Assembly: GCF_028356935.1 (NCBI RefSeq)
Contig: NZ_CP102798.1
Span: 4,402,001-4,466,000 of the forward strand
Length of the DNA stretch: 64,000 bases
Direction: 5' to 3'
DNA from: Lysinibacillus sp. OF-1
Lineage (GTDB): Bacteria > Bacillota > Bacilli > Bacillales_A > Planococcaceae
In this document: positions 16,271 to 22,478 of the stretch, piece after piece
Numbering within the stretch: position 1 is the stretch's first letter
Layout of the letters: each line of letters opens with the position of its first letter
The notes under the pieces: model-generated
The model's database searches: none
What the model was told of the DNA's origin: nothing
What the model saw: only the letters and a program-made list of their open reading frames with translations
Program-made: the position numbers and the translations under genes

Positions 16271-17221
16271 ATGCGTAGAGGTCGATATTTTTCATTTGTC
16301 CTTTTACTTGCACTAATGTTCGTGTTAGGTGCCTGTGGCTCAAATGAAGTAAAAGAGGATACAGCGAAAGAAGATCAATCAACTAAAGATACAAGAATTG
16401 TAGAAGATGAGTTTGGAAAAGTAGAAATTCCTACAAACCCACAGCGTGTAGCTGCTATCTATATGGAAGATTATTTAACTGCCTTGGATGTAAAACCTGT
16501 TGTGCAATGGTATCACCCATCATGGGGTAAACAGGACTATTTAGGATTAGATGTTCCTGAGTTCGACATTACTGGTAGTATGGAAACATTACTACAAGCT
16601 AAGCCTGATTTAATCATTGTGGATGGCGCCGCGGATAAGGCAAAATATGAAGAATACTCAAAGATTGCACCTACTTACCGCTTAAAAGAAGATATTCTAC
16701 AAAATCCACGTGAAATTGTAAAAACAATAGCTGATGTTTTAAATATTCCTGATAAAGCAAAGGAAATCGTTGACAAATATGAGCAACGTGTATCCGATTT
16801 AAAAGCAAAATTAGATGAATCAATTGGAGACGAAACAGTTGCTGTTGTACGTCTAAATGTCGCAGATAATACATTAGCTTTATTTGGCATTAAAAATCGC
16901 TACACTGGCTATATTTACACAGAAACGGGCTTGACACCACATCCGTTAGCACGTGATATGACAGAGTTTCATGAAGTCTTATCAGAAGAGGCTATTCCAG
17001 AGCTAGATGCGGATCATATCATCCTTTTCCCTTCAAATGGCACTTGGGATTCGGAAGAAAATCAAGAAGCGATTAAATGGTTAGATAGTACACTATGGAA
17101 AACAGTACCTGCTGTTAAAAATGGGCATGTCTATATTGCGGATCGAACATATTGGCAGTCTGGAGCTATCACAGCTAACCTGCTGAAATATGATGATCTT
17201 GAGAAATGGTTCGTGAAATAA
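16271..17221 (+). CDS. Iron-siderophore ABC transporter substrate-binding lipoprotein (FeuA/FecB-like)
   Basis: 316 residues with a lipoprotein signal and lipobox LGAC (residues about 18-21). The periplasmic-binding fold TroA/FecB class is shown by TNPQRVAAIYMEDYLTALDVKP near the mature N-terminus, KPDLIIVDG, and the closing VYIADRTYWQSGA. It captures a ferric siderophore outside the membrane for an FecCD permease and ATPase, which are not adjacent. A Fur box controls it. The segment YHPSWGKQDYLGL is almost repeated in the downstream Btr-like regulator, so the two genes share an ancestor and probably a ligand. Confidence 0.88.
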   Translation: MRRGRYFSFVLLLALMFVLGACGSNEVKEDTAKEDQSTKDTRIVEDEFGKVEIPTNPQRVAAIYMEDYLTALDVKPVVQWYHPSWGKQDYLGLDVPEFDITGSMETLLQAKPDLIIVDGAADKAKYEEYSKIAPTYRLKEDILQNPREIVKTIADVLNIPDKAKEIVDKYEQRVSDLKAKLDESIGDETVAVVRLNVADNTLALFGIKNRYTGYIYTETGLTPHPLARDMTEFHEVLSEEAIPELDADHIILFPSNGTWDSEENQEAIKWLDSTLWKTVPAVKNGHVYIADRTYWQSGAITANLLKYDDLEKWFVK

Positions 17222-17869: not shown

Positions 17870-19438
17870 ATGGGTAACTTAACACATGTCTATACGTTAC
17901 AAACTATTTCTTATGTGATTCAATCAACGAACAAGCAGCAGTTTAATAGTGATTTCTATACACTTTTCATCGTAATGAGTGGCAGCGGAAAGCTAGAAAT
18001 AGATCATAACACCATTCATCTTAGTGAAGAAAAGTGCATATCGATTCCTCCTAATAACACGGCTAATATACGCATTCAAAACGAGCACCTTTGTTTTTAT
18101 CAATTACAGTTCAACATTGTCCATCTTTGCAATAAACAGACTACTAGCCCTTTTAAGCGTGTCAAAGAGCAACGTCTTCTCCCCTTTTCGCAATGTCGTA
18201 GACTGCTAGAAGCCATTTATCAGAACCGTCTAGCGGAGGATGAGCACACCATCTTTGAGCAGCATGTACACTTTCAAGAGCTGATGTTATTGCTCTTACA
18301 TCAAACAATACCCAAGCTGGTGCAAAAAAATGATCGTCAATCTGTTGAGCAATCCATTAACTATTTGCATAAACATTTTGAAAAAGAGTGGACTGTCGAG
18401 CAGTTGGCAGAGCTAGCTGATGTTCCAAGATGGAATTATACCCGTATGTTCAAAGAGATTACAGGGCAAATCCCTCTTCACTATTTAAATAACATTCGCA
18501 TTGAAAAAGCCAAGCAATTATTAATGACAACAAATGATCGGGTATTTGAAATTAGTCAGTCTATCGGATTTAATAATGAGTATTATTTCAATCGTCGTTT
18601 TAAAGAACATGTCGGCATCTCTCCAGGACAATATCGAAGAAACCAAAGCAGCAATCTACGTGTATTTGCACCATTCTTAGAAGATTTCTTTGTCGCCCTT
18701 GGGATTACACCAATTGCTCAATTCAGTCATCCAAAATGGGGAAAACAAGACTATTTAGGTCTACAAGAAGTGCCTGATATCGATGTACAAAATGGAGAAA
18801 TGGATCGACTCCTTCACTATAAACCAACATTAATTATGCTAGATGCAGGTATAGAGCGATGGGAATCCTGTCATCATTTAAATGAAGTAGCTCCCATCTG
18901 TCATATCTCACATCCTGGAGAGAACTGGCAGTCTACTTTGTTTAAGATTGCTGATTTAACAGGAAAAACCGCCTTGATGCAAGACGTGATCCTACAATAT
19001 GAGGATAAGGTACAGCAAGCAAAAGGAATTCTTAGTAAATCCGTTTATGGGCAAAGTGTGGCATTTCTTCGCATTTCAGCCATTGGCATTACTCTATATG
19101 CGGGTCCTGAATGTGGCTATACGGGGCCAATTTTATATCGTGACCTCGGTTTAATGCCACATCCACTTGTCTGGAGTATTCCGCACAATCAACGTAAAGC
19201 ACCACTGACATTTGATCAATTGCTGCAATTAGATGCGGATCATTTATTTATTACTTTTGATAAACAACATTCCATTTACGAGAACGAGGAGCGTACGATT
19301 TTAAAAACTTCTATGTGGAAAAATCTAGCTGCAGTTAAAACCAACTGTGTATATGAAGTGGATTTTTTAACATGGATGAATTACGGTATTCTGTCTCATA
19401 GTAAAAAAATTGATGATGTCTTACATGTTCTCGGCTAA
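17870..19438 (+). CDS. btr: AraC-type regulator fused to a siderophore-binding domain (Btr-like)
   Basis: 522 residues in three parts. Residues 1-130 are a cupin-like AraC arm, about 155-258 a double helix-turn-helix ending in the signature FNRRFKEHVGISPGQYRR, and 265-522 a FecB/FeuA-like binding domain (FSHPKWGKQDYLGL, KPTLIMLDAG, CGYTGPILYRDLGL). There is no signal peptide, so the binding domain is cytoplasmic. In Bacillus subtilis, Btr has this layout and activates the feuABC uptake operon when it binds ferric bacillibactin. A similar role for the adjacent Fur-boxed gene at 16271 is likely. The start has AAAGGGGTGA upstream. Confidence 0.87.
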   Translation: MGNLTHVYTLQTISYVIQSTNKQQFNSDFYTLFIVMSGSGKLEIDHNTIHLSEEKCISIPPNNTANIRIQNEHLCFYQLQFNIVHLCNKQTTSPFKRVKEQRLLPFSQCRRLLEAIYQNRLAEDEHTIFEQHVHFQELMLLLLHQTIPKLVQKNDRQSVEQSINYLHKHFEKEWTVEQLAELADVPRWNYTRMFKEITGQIPLHYLNNIRIEKAKQLLMTTNDRVFEISQSIGFNNEYYFNRRFKEHVGISPGQYRRNQSSNLRVFAPFLEDFFVALGITPIAQFSHPKWGKQDYLGLQEVPDIDVQNGEMDRLLHYKPTLIMLDAGIERWESCHHLNEVAPICHISHPGENWQSTLFKIADLTGKTALMQDVILQYEDKVQQAKGILSKSVYGQSVAFLRISAIGITLYAGPECGYTGPILYRDLGLMPHPLVWSIPHNQRKAPLTFDQLLQLDADHLFITFDKQHSIYENEERTILKTSMWKNLAAVKTNCVYEVDFLTWMNYGILSHSKKIDDVLHVLG

Positions 19439-20051: not shown

Positions 20052-20166
20052 ACTTTTCTTATCGAGAGAGACGGAGGGATTGGCCCGATGAAGTCTCAGC
20101 AACCAGCTCAACAGTATGGTGCTAATTCCAATTGGCAAAATTTTAAGCCTGAAAGATGAGAAGAAG
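20052..20166 (+). promoter_or_regulatory. SAM-I (S-box) riboswitch
   Basis: All landmark blocks are present in order: the P1 5' strand TTCTTATC, GAGAGACGGAGGGATTGGCCC, GATGAAGTCTCAGCAACCAG, GGTGCTAATTCC, and CCTGAAAGATGAGAA closing P1. A terminator hairpin with a T run follows at 20187. In S-box RNAs bound S-adenosylmethionine favours the terminator, so the downstream gene is expressed when SAM is low. The gene controlled here encodes a cyclase-family protein rather than a known methionine gene. Confidence 0.93.
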
Positions 20167-20186
20167 AACTACCGTTGCTTATTCTG

Positions 20187-20214
20187 GAGTCCTCTTCTAA
20201 GGGGACTCTTTTTT
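20187..20214 (+). terminator. Riboswitch expression-platform terminator
   Basis: GAGTCCTCTT pairs with AAGGGGACTC (one wobble), followed by six T. It lies between the SAM-I aptamer and the cyclase start codon. Confidence 0.85.
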
Positions 20215-20250
20215 ATGTTCTACTAATTTTAACAGAAAGCAGTGAAATCA

Positions 20251-20988
20251 ATGTCAAACCAACTTTTACAAGCATTACAATTATTAAAATCAAAACAATG
20301 GGTTGATTTAACACATACATTCGGCCCTAATTCCCCACATTTTTTTATGTTTGAAGATGCTAAATTTGAAACATTATTCTCTCATGATGACGGGTTCTTC
20401 GCACAACAATTCACGTTCCCAGGACAATATGGCACACATATCGACCCACCCATTCATTTTGTGCGAGACTCCCGCTATCTAGAAGAATTAGAACTAAAAG
20501 AACTAGTTCTTCCTCTTGTCGTTATTGATAAATCACGAGAAGCTGCTAGCAATCATGACTTCTCGCTAAGTGTGCAAGATATTTTTGATTTTGAAGCACA
20601 ACATGGAGTAATTGAAGCAGGTACCTTTGTAGCGCTACGTACGGATTGGAGTAAGCGCTGGCCAGATAAAGAGGCATTTAGTAACCAAGATATGGATGGA
20701 CATAACCATATACCAGGCTGGGGCTTAGAGGCATTACAATTTTTATTGAAGGAACGTCAAATAAGTGCACTTGGCCATGAAACATTTGATACTGATTCAG
20801 CCGCTGATTTTCACAAAAATGGTAAGCTAGACGGCGAATACTTCGTGCTTGAACAAAACATCTATCAAATTGAGTTGATGACTAACTTGGACAAGCTACC
20901 TGCGAAGGGGGCAATTATCTTCAATATCGTCCCTAAGCCTGAAAAGGCATCTGGATTCCCTGTACGCTCATTTGCTATTTTGCCATAA
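20251..20988 (+). CDS. Cyclase-family (kynurenine-formamidase-like) metal hydrolase
   Basis: About 245 residues. The metal-binding motif QYGTHIDPPIHF (near residue 65) is the HxGTHxDxPxHF signature of the cyclase family. LGHETFDTD near residue 170 and the C-terminal IFNIVPKPEKASGFPVRSFAI complete the fold. Relatives hydrolyse N-formylkynurenine, isatin or other cyclic amides. A GTG lies three codons earlier, but neither start has a strong ribosome site; I favour the ATG at 20251. Control by a SAM-I riboswitch ties it to sulfur-amino-acid or one-carbon metabolism, which is not the usual context for this family. Confidence 0.83.
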   Translation: MSNQLLQALQLLKSKQWVDLTHTFGPNSPHFFMFEDAKFETLFSHDDGFFAQQFTFPGQYGTHIDPPIHFVRDSRYLEELELKELVLPLVVIDKSREAASNHDFSLSVQDIFDFEAQHGVIEAGTFVALRTDWSKRWPDKEAFSNQDMDGHNHIPGWGLEALQFLLKERQISALGHETFDTDSAADFHKNGKLDGEYFVLEQNIYQIELMTNLDKLPAKGAIIFNIVPKPEKASGFPVRSFAILP

Positions 20989-20991
20989 CAC

Positions 20992-21032
20992 AAAGGTCTG
21001 TACGATTCATATGTTGAATCATACAGACCTTT
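20992..21032. terminator. Bidirectional terminator
   Basis: AAAGGTCTGTA / TACAGACCTTT with an inner GATTCA/TGAATC continuation, just after the cyclase stop and overlapping the stop of the convergent DedA gene. Confidence 0.8.
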
Positions 21033-21627
21033 ATTTTCGTATATTTCTTTTTTTGAATAGATAGTAAACGATGAGCATTACGAGGCCAAACAATAGGATG
21101 AGATAAATACTATAATGGGATAAATAATAACCAACAAACCGCCACTTCTCCCCAAGCATCCTCCCTAACGTTATAAATGTGAAAGTCCAGATAAATGCCC
21201 CTGTATAGGCAAAAAAAGCAAACTTTCTATATGGATAATTATTAATTGCCGCAATATAGGCTGTCAGATGTCGTACACCAGGTATAAAATAGCCTATTAA
21301 TAATAAAGTTGGCCCAATTTTAGTAAACAGTTGTTTTGTAAAATCAATTTTTTGCTCCGTAATATGAATTTTGGGTCCATATTTCTGCAATAATGGTAAG
21401 CCAAAACGATAGCCGATATAGTAGCTTAAGGTAATACCGCCAACTGCACCAATCATTGCACTTACTAAAGCGGGAATGTGTTCAAGGCTTTCTATATAAA
21501 CGCTGTAGCCAACATATGTTAGAAAGACCTCATCAGGAAGTGGCAACCCAACAATGCCTCCAATTAGGATCACGATAATACCCAAATACCCGTAATGTTC
21601 AATTAGAGATTGCACATGATGTGCCAT
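21031..21627 (-). CDS. DedA-family membrane protein
   Basis: About 198 residues (or 209 if the ATG at 21660 is used; I prefer MAHHVQSLIEHYGYLG because family members begin there). The sequence GGIVGLPLPDEVFLTYVGY and the amphipathic re-entrant GYFIPGVRHLTAYIA are DedA hallmarks, with the key Arg in PGVRH. DedA proteins are membrane proteins linked to recycling of undecaprenyl phosphate or phospholipid carriers and to membrane-potential homeostasis. It is monocistronic. The downstream terminator is shared with the cyclase gene. Confidence 0.82.
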   Translation of the reverse strand: MAHHVQSLIEHYGYLGIIVILIGGIVGLPLPDEVFLTYVGYSVYIESLEHIPALVSAMIGAVGGITLSYYIGYRFGLPLLQKYGPKIHITEQKIDFTKQLFTKIGPTLLLIGYFIPGVRHLTAYIAAINNYPYRKFAFFAYTGAFIWTFTFITLGRMLGEKWRFVGYYLSHYSIYLILLFGLVMLIVYYLFKKRNIRK

Positions 21628-21727
21628 ATAACATCCCACCCAAAATTTATTAAAACGCATTGATTAACAAGTTCCTTCAATAGATCTAAGAGAACCTGAG
21701 GCATCGACTTTAAGACCTTCAGCAGCT

Positions 21728-22478
21728 TTATATCATTTGAAACTGCCGTAAAGCAAAGTCAATACCACCTTCAGTGGAACTCTTTGTAACAAAATTCGCA
21801 ACTGCTTTTAGAGCTGCACTACCATTTCCCATAGCAATACCTAGCCCTACATGCTCTAACATATCAATATCATTATCCCCATCTCCAAAAGCAATAGCAT
21901 TTTCAGGATCAATGTTAAAATGGTCTAGTACCGCTTTAACAGCTATCGATTTGGCAACATCCTGCTGTAATACATTCACAATATAAGGATGCCATCGCTG
22001 CCAAAATATATGCGGAAATTGGCTAGCATATCTTTTTTCAGCCTCCTCATCTGCATATAGACACATGAGAAAAACTTCTTCATCCACAATTTTTTCATTC
22101 ACAACCGGAAAATTTCGTAAAGATAGAGTTGCCTGCATCGCATTGAAAGCAGCTGGATGCTGAATGCCATTCATCGATAGTTGCTCTGTAAAAAATGTGA
22201 GGCTATGCTGCTGTTCACGTGCAAAAGCTTGTACATTTTGAATTATGTATGATTAAATCCTTGTGTTTCACATATGCCCCATTTGCTGTAATAAAGGTTT
22301 CAATCCCTAGCGCTTGTATCTCCTGACACATCGATAAAGGTCTTCCTGTAGCCGCTACAAGGTGAATTCCTCTCTCCTGCAAAAGTTGAATGGCCTGCTT
22401 TGTGCTTTCTTCCACACAGCCATCTTCGTAATTAATCAGTGTTCCATCCACATCAAAAAATATGATATTATAATTCAT
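21728..22478 (-). pseudogene. Cof-type HAD phosphatase split by a single-base frameshift
   Basis: The N-terminal frame (22478-22215) has the HAD motif I FFDVDGTL and the motif II region VAATGRP. The C-terminal frame (ending 21728) has motif III/IV GDGDNDIDMLEHVGLGIAMGNG. Between them, the frame of the second part can be read back as VQAFAREQQHSLTFFTEQLS to an A4 run (plus-strand 22236-22239). One extra A there shifts the frame and stops it at TGA. Without it a normal protein of about 250 residues results. Cof-type HADs dephosphorylate sugar phosphates, FMN or PLP. It may be a true mutation or a sequencing error. Confidence 0.8.

Follow-up and report, generated by a model that had tools for sequence, protein, structure and literature searches.

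Described relatives of the riboswitch and the enzyme

SAM-I (S-box) riboswitches (RF00162) are known as off-switches, and a 2013 survey said of a range of SAM-riboswitch-controlled Bacillales genes only that they are probably part of cysteine/methionine metabolism (PMC3766115). SAM-I variants that sense spermidine, with changes in J1/2 and the internal loop of P3, have been described from Lysinibacillus, Oceanobacillus, Sporosarcina and Ornithinibacillus (PMC10853860). On the protein side, the characterised members of the cyclase family PF04199 (PMC6117287, PMC4243253, PMC5341072) include the Mn-dependent isatin hydrolases (4j0n, 5nna and 5nmp), the kynurenine formamidase KynB (TIGR03035; 4co9), and the cyclase-like esterase MGS0169 and a trans-dienelactone hydrolase. 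Core methionine synthases (PRK06520/YxjG), which consist of the MetE catalytic domain only, are not relatives of these enzymes and are reported to use methyl donors other than methyl-folate (PMC7857596, PMC7005905). We found no paper in the open literature linking a SAM riboswitch with this cyclase family (the main 2004 survey of Gram-positive methionine regulons lay outside this search, and an earlier listing is possible), nor did we find the cyclase in papers on streptococcal methionine regulons.

A SAM-I riboswitch precedes a lone cyclase gene

The window analysed here is a 64,000-nt stretch of the Lysinibacillus sp. OF-1 genome, and its sole Rfam match above cut-off is a SAM-I aptamer on the + strand (20056-20162). 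It spans the whole RF00162 model (positions 1-108) as a four-way junction and, at 85.8 bits (E 6.5e-19), exceeds the gathering score of 44.4. P1 is formed by 20056-20063 with 20155-20162. The junction pairs of P1, J1/2 AGAG, P3 GCAA and the UGC are all retained; these correspond to the SAM-pocket nucleotides of the solved SAM-I structure. The aptamer is followed on the same strand by an intrinsic terminator (20186-20215), a hairpin of ten pairs (GGAGUCCUCU(UCUA)AGGGGACUCU; 20186-20209) with a U-run, and the MFE fold of the leader contains P1 together with this terminator. Judging from the sequence and from constrained folds, a presumed antiterminator (20159-20198, + strand) may form between AGAAGAAGAACU (20159-20170) and AGUCCUCUUCU (20188-20198), overlapping both the 3' strand of P1 and the 5' arm of the terminator. 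Bound SAM would then stabilise P1 and block the antiterminator so that transcription ends at 20186-20215, and in the absence of SAM the antiterminator would form and the cyclase would be made. We infer this direction, with SAM binding lowering expression, by analogy to the known off-switch logic of S-box leaders, in support of the prediction of the sequence-only reading that the enzyme is made when SAM is scarce.

The gene behind the leader (20251-20988, + strand) encodes a hydrolase of 245 amino acids that matches the PF04199 Cyclase profile with 131.6 bits (cut-off 23.1) and belongs to an uncharacterised subfamily. We place its start at the ATG at 20251, which gives 245 codons up to the stop at 20988 (the mechanical start is a GTG at 20242). 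The next gene (21031-21660) runs convergent, so the leader serves the cyclase alone here and the gene is monocistronic. A consensus scan found no promoter-like site on the + strand between aptamer and ATG. Several earlier proposals thus hold up on closer analysis, namely a clear S-box aptamer with terminator and the cyclase as the only downstream gene, and neither degeneration of the aptamer at its SAM contacts nor independent transcription of the cyclase, which had been named as possible objections, was seen in the core pocket nucleotides or in the promoter scan, respectively.

Nine SAM-I sites were found in the OF-1 genome, that of the cyclase included, and all other eight (8/8) precede methionine, cysteine or SAM genes as named from their translations: metQ, metA, metN, metY, metN again, yezD, a metH-like homocysteine methyltransferase and metK. 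Compared to described SAM-I riboswitches, the site upstream of the cyclase shares the full-length aptamer, the contact nucleotides, the terminator layout and a methionine regulon in the same genome, and it differs solely in its target gene. The cyclase is the single PF04199 protein of OF-1; B. subtilis, which was part of our control set, has none, and this would account for its absence from the classical S-box work on that species.

Two other features of the neighbourhood deserve mention. A HAD/Cof-type hydrolase gene on the - strand (21728-22478) lacks 23 bases that are present in two related loci (L041 and L045), and this deletion splits it into two ORFs. A locus of the same species (L040) shares the deletion, so the gene is a genuine pseudogene and the break is not a sequencing error. 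On the + strand, an AraC-type regulator (17870-19438) appears to carry a fused iron-siderophore-binding domain and adjoins a gene for a siderophore-binding lipoprotein (16271-17221), an arrangement that presumably resembles the known one of Btr.

The pairing of riboswitch and cyclase is conserved in Bacillales

We searched relatives with a covariance model built from the nine SAM-I sites of the OF-1 genome. Full-length cyclase genes are present in 28 of 32 genomes of the genus, each with the aptamer directly upstream (28/28). A 29th genome (G016) has kept the aptamer and mostly lost the cyclase, and the other three have no orthologue. At the G016 locus (L038, about 1324-1680), aptamer and terminator are intact in front of a cyclase remnant of about 59 codons that retains the normal C-terminus (...ILP). 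In GTDB genomes of Bacillales, the aptamer lies upstream of the cyclase at 59 of 80 loci, distributed over Bacillaceae, Planococcaceae and Aneurinibacillus, with the genera Lysinibacillus, Metasolibacillus, Sporosarcina, Planococcus, Oceanobacillus, Ornithinibacillus, Paucisalibacillus, Virgibacillus, Lentibacillus, Neobacillus, Mesobacillus, Cytobacillus, Pallidibacillus and Aneurinibacillus. Presence or absence of the aptamer changes only 4 times on the tree (18.7 with shuffled labels), and a terminator-like hairpin follows the aptamer in all 59 relatives, compared to 4.5% of shuffled segments, with one match (L059) that appears atypical. The 21 riboswitch-free loci belong to Brevibacillus, Paenibacillus, Saccharibacillus, one Sporosarcina group and one Psychrobacillus, and no other Rfam regulator was found near the cyclase in these loci, so the enzyme also has a use where SAM does not control it. 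One Paenibacillus orthologue (L063, 3998-4735), likewise from a lineage without the riboswitch, is broken by one in-frame stop.

Among 58 cyclase-linked aptamers, base pairing is kept in 98.5% of base-pair cells, and we counted 120 double-sided changes where shuffles led us to expect 40 (at most 8 with slid partners). The SAM-pocket nucleotides (P1 A-U/U-A, J1/2 AGAG, P3 GCAA and UGC) are invariant or nearly so. These data bear on the idea that the aptamer is a SAM-I variant for another ligand, like the spermidine class, which shares several genera and the fold with it and would account for an unexpected gene downstream. The window aptamer indeed has a G at the first J1/2 position, and 12 of the 58 aptamers read GCAG instead of GCAA in P3. 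However, the GCAG form also precedes metN in the OF-1 genome, and J1/2 AGAG (57/58), the P1 U-A/A-U pairs, GCA-C and UGC are kept, as compared with the published description of the spermidine class (PMC10853860). Unlike in that class, J1/2 and the P3 internal loop of the window aptamer follow the SAM-I consensus, and no polyamine gene lies downstream. A change of ligand is thus very improbable, and SAM is still expected since J1/2 and the P3 internal loop are kept.

The cyclase belongs to a distinct active-site subfamily of PF04199

Instead of the classical PF04199 motif H-x3-H-x-D-x3-H, the cyclase reads Q-x3-H-x-D-x3-H, and its full active-site set is Q58-x3-H62-x-D64-x3-H68, H175, E195 and E207 (numbering without Met1). 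The altered motif is found in 79 of 80 Bacillales rows of the alignment as well as in all complete streptococcal-type rows, family f5 (see below) and several distant rows, and the whole Q-H-D-H/H-E/E/E set is the same across Bacillales, streptococcal-type, f5 and several other distant homologues. In still more distant homologues, these positions change together to the classical H-H-D-H/H/E set. Within the Q-H-D-H/H-E/E/E subfamily, some distant members (L127-L129, L145 and L147) have a signal-peptide-like N-terminus indicative of an exported form, and those of L147 lie near genes of a branched-chain-amino-acid-type ABC transporter.

Alignment to the characterised members of the family shows that the first motif histidine is replaced by Gln58 and the catalytic histidine of isatin hydrolases (His207/212) by Glu195, that His175 is gained, and that Glu207 occupies the position of Glu173 in KynB. 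Among solved structures, isatin hydrolases (E 1.4e-33) and a Ruegeria cyclase-phosphotriesterase come closest. With the isatin hydrolases, the cyclase shares the fold, overall sequence and the H-x-D-x3-H part of the metal motif, but it differs by Gln58 and Glu195, by reading (I/V)EL (IEL/VEL) where these enzymes have GLQC/GLAS, and by reading QxF in place of their WxW/FxW pocket (signature from PMC6117287), so that the aromatic pocket is absent. KynB has PF04199 membership and the glutamate at its second-metal-ligand position in common with the cyclase, whereas two of its six metal-site residues (H50/H54/D56/H60/H161/E173) are different, with Q58 and E195 replacing histidines. MGS0169 and the trans-dienelactone hydrolase (PMC5341072) also have Gln for the first motif histidine, but their second histidine is Gln, too (Q-x3-Q-x-D-x3-H), while the cyclase keeps His62 and has Glu195. 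With 19.1 bits, the cyclase stays far below the TIGR03035 cut-off (223 bits), and the OF-1 genome has no tryptophan dioxygenase. Together with the active-site set and the missing isatin pocket, this indicates that the enzyme is neither KynB nor an isatin hydrolase by the features tested. Its earlier description as kynurenine-formamidase-like is therefore accurate at the level of the Pfam superfamily only and fails as a KynB label. An AlphaFold model of the cyclase has a pLDDT of 64.6 with active-site loops below 50, which leaves the active site unreadable, and a PDB search with this model returned the known fold only.

Methionine genes as recurrent operon partners

The cyclase is the first gene 3' of the switch at 50 of 59 loci. 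In Sporosarcina, a MetI-like PLP enzyme that passes the PRK08247 cut-off lies between riboswitch and cyclase at five loci, and at four loci of Oceanobacillus and Lentibacillus this place is taken by a PF02574 homocysteine S-methyltransferase. A PF02574 homocysteine S-methyltransferase of 350 amino acids is the first gene of the SAM-I operon at L077 (2904-3956), L080, L081 and L104 and falls well short of all NCBIfam cut-offs (best, 136.8 vs 453 bits). Directly 3' of the cyclase, 15 Bacillales loci encode a core-MetE of the PRK06520 family (YxjG type; 458 bits), and eleven such adjoining pairs are visible in the order-wide listings. The reverse order, core-MetE followed by cyclase, is found in two families of loci (10/31 in f6 and 4/6 in f5) that we read, partly from their neighbouring genes, as lactic-acid bacteria. 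Representative f5 and f6 loci have no SAM-I aptamer, and the two that we scanned with Rfam have no other riboswitch; the tie between cyclase and methionine synthesis thus extends beyond riboswitch control. A core-MetE of this family was not found in most Lysinibacillus genomes, including OF-1, so it is an optional partner, and co-occurrence with the cyclase across the order is loose and not obligate. The cyclase thus occurs alone, with an enzyme that produces homocysteine (or cystathionine), namely MetI, or with the homocysteine-consuming core-MetE and S-methyltransferase. The conserved pairing and these partners broadly back the earlier placement of the gene in sulfur-amino-acid/methyl metabolism.

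Possible functions of the cyclase

We consider it likely that the SAM-I off-switch serves to make a metal-dependent PF04199 hydrolase that acts at the homocysteine/methionine node when SAM is low. We infer the place of the cyclase in this metabolism from its regulation and partners, and the enzyme would replenish the pool used by homocysteine methyltransferases from a ring-closed or acylated derivative. It is plausible, at slightly below even chances, that the Q-H-D-H/H-E/E/E subfamily catalyses an undescribed reaction at this node, for example as a dedicated homocysteine-thiolactone hydrolase or by unlocking a non-folate methyl donor for core-MetE, and was recruited into the S-box regulon of Bacillales. 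Editing by methionyl-tRNA synthetase releases homocysteine thiolactone when homocysteine is high and methionine low. As a product of high homocysteine and low methionine, this compound would fit both the regulation and the three settings of the cyclase (with MetI, with a methyltransferase or alone), and it is our leading candidate substrate even if, as a specific guess, it is rather unlikely to be correct. The glutamine at the first motif position is common to the cyclase, a lactone hydrolase and an esterase (PMC5341072), although the sequence as such favours no single substrate.

With a similarly low probability, the cyclase could supply or clear a metabolite of folate-independent methyl transfer by hydrolysing an ester, lactone or amide, either one that bears the methyl donor of core-MetE and the homocysteine S-methyltransferase or one that this donor leaves behind. 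The two opposite gene orders in which core-MetE adjoins the cyclase would fit this role, as would the PF02574 partner and the non-folate donors reported for core methionine synthases in the literature cited above. However, cyclase and switch are kept in Lysinibacillus genomes such as OF-1 that have no core-MetE of this family, and at five loci the cyclase is paired with MetI, which does not methylate homocysteine. It seems doubtful, more so than methyl transfer, that the enzyme deformylates an N-formyl one-carbon compound (10-formyl-tetrahydrofolate or N-formylmethionine) by analogy to kynurenine formamidase: although KynB is a formamidase of PF04199 and its second-metal glutamate aligns with E207 (PMC4243253, PMC6117287), the whole subfamily has Gln for the first motif histidine and Glu for the catalytic histidine of KynB and isatin hydrolase, and the recurrent neighbours include no folate or formyl gene. 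Finally, it is hardly credible that the cyclase is a usual isatin hydrolase or kynurenine formamidase placed behind an S-box by chance. Isatin hydrolases are its nearest matches among solved structures, but the TIGR03035 score, the lack of tryptophan dioxygenase, the altered WxW/FxW and GLQC/GLAS signatures (PMC6117287) and the 59 conserved pairings with a SAM switch all argue against it.

Significance for methionine metabolism

Few regulatory clues to what an uncharacterised enzyme does are as strong as control by a riboswitch. We regard this case as a new S-box target that combines an enzyme subfamily without assigned role with a recurring tie to folate-independent methionine synthases. A widespread hydrolase subfamily is thereby tied to SAM shortage and, separately from the riboswitch, to methionine synthases that themselves lack a settled methyl donor. 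The question at stake is whether this subfamily provides a missing recycling step in methionine metabolism.
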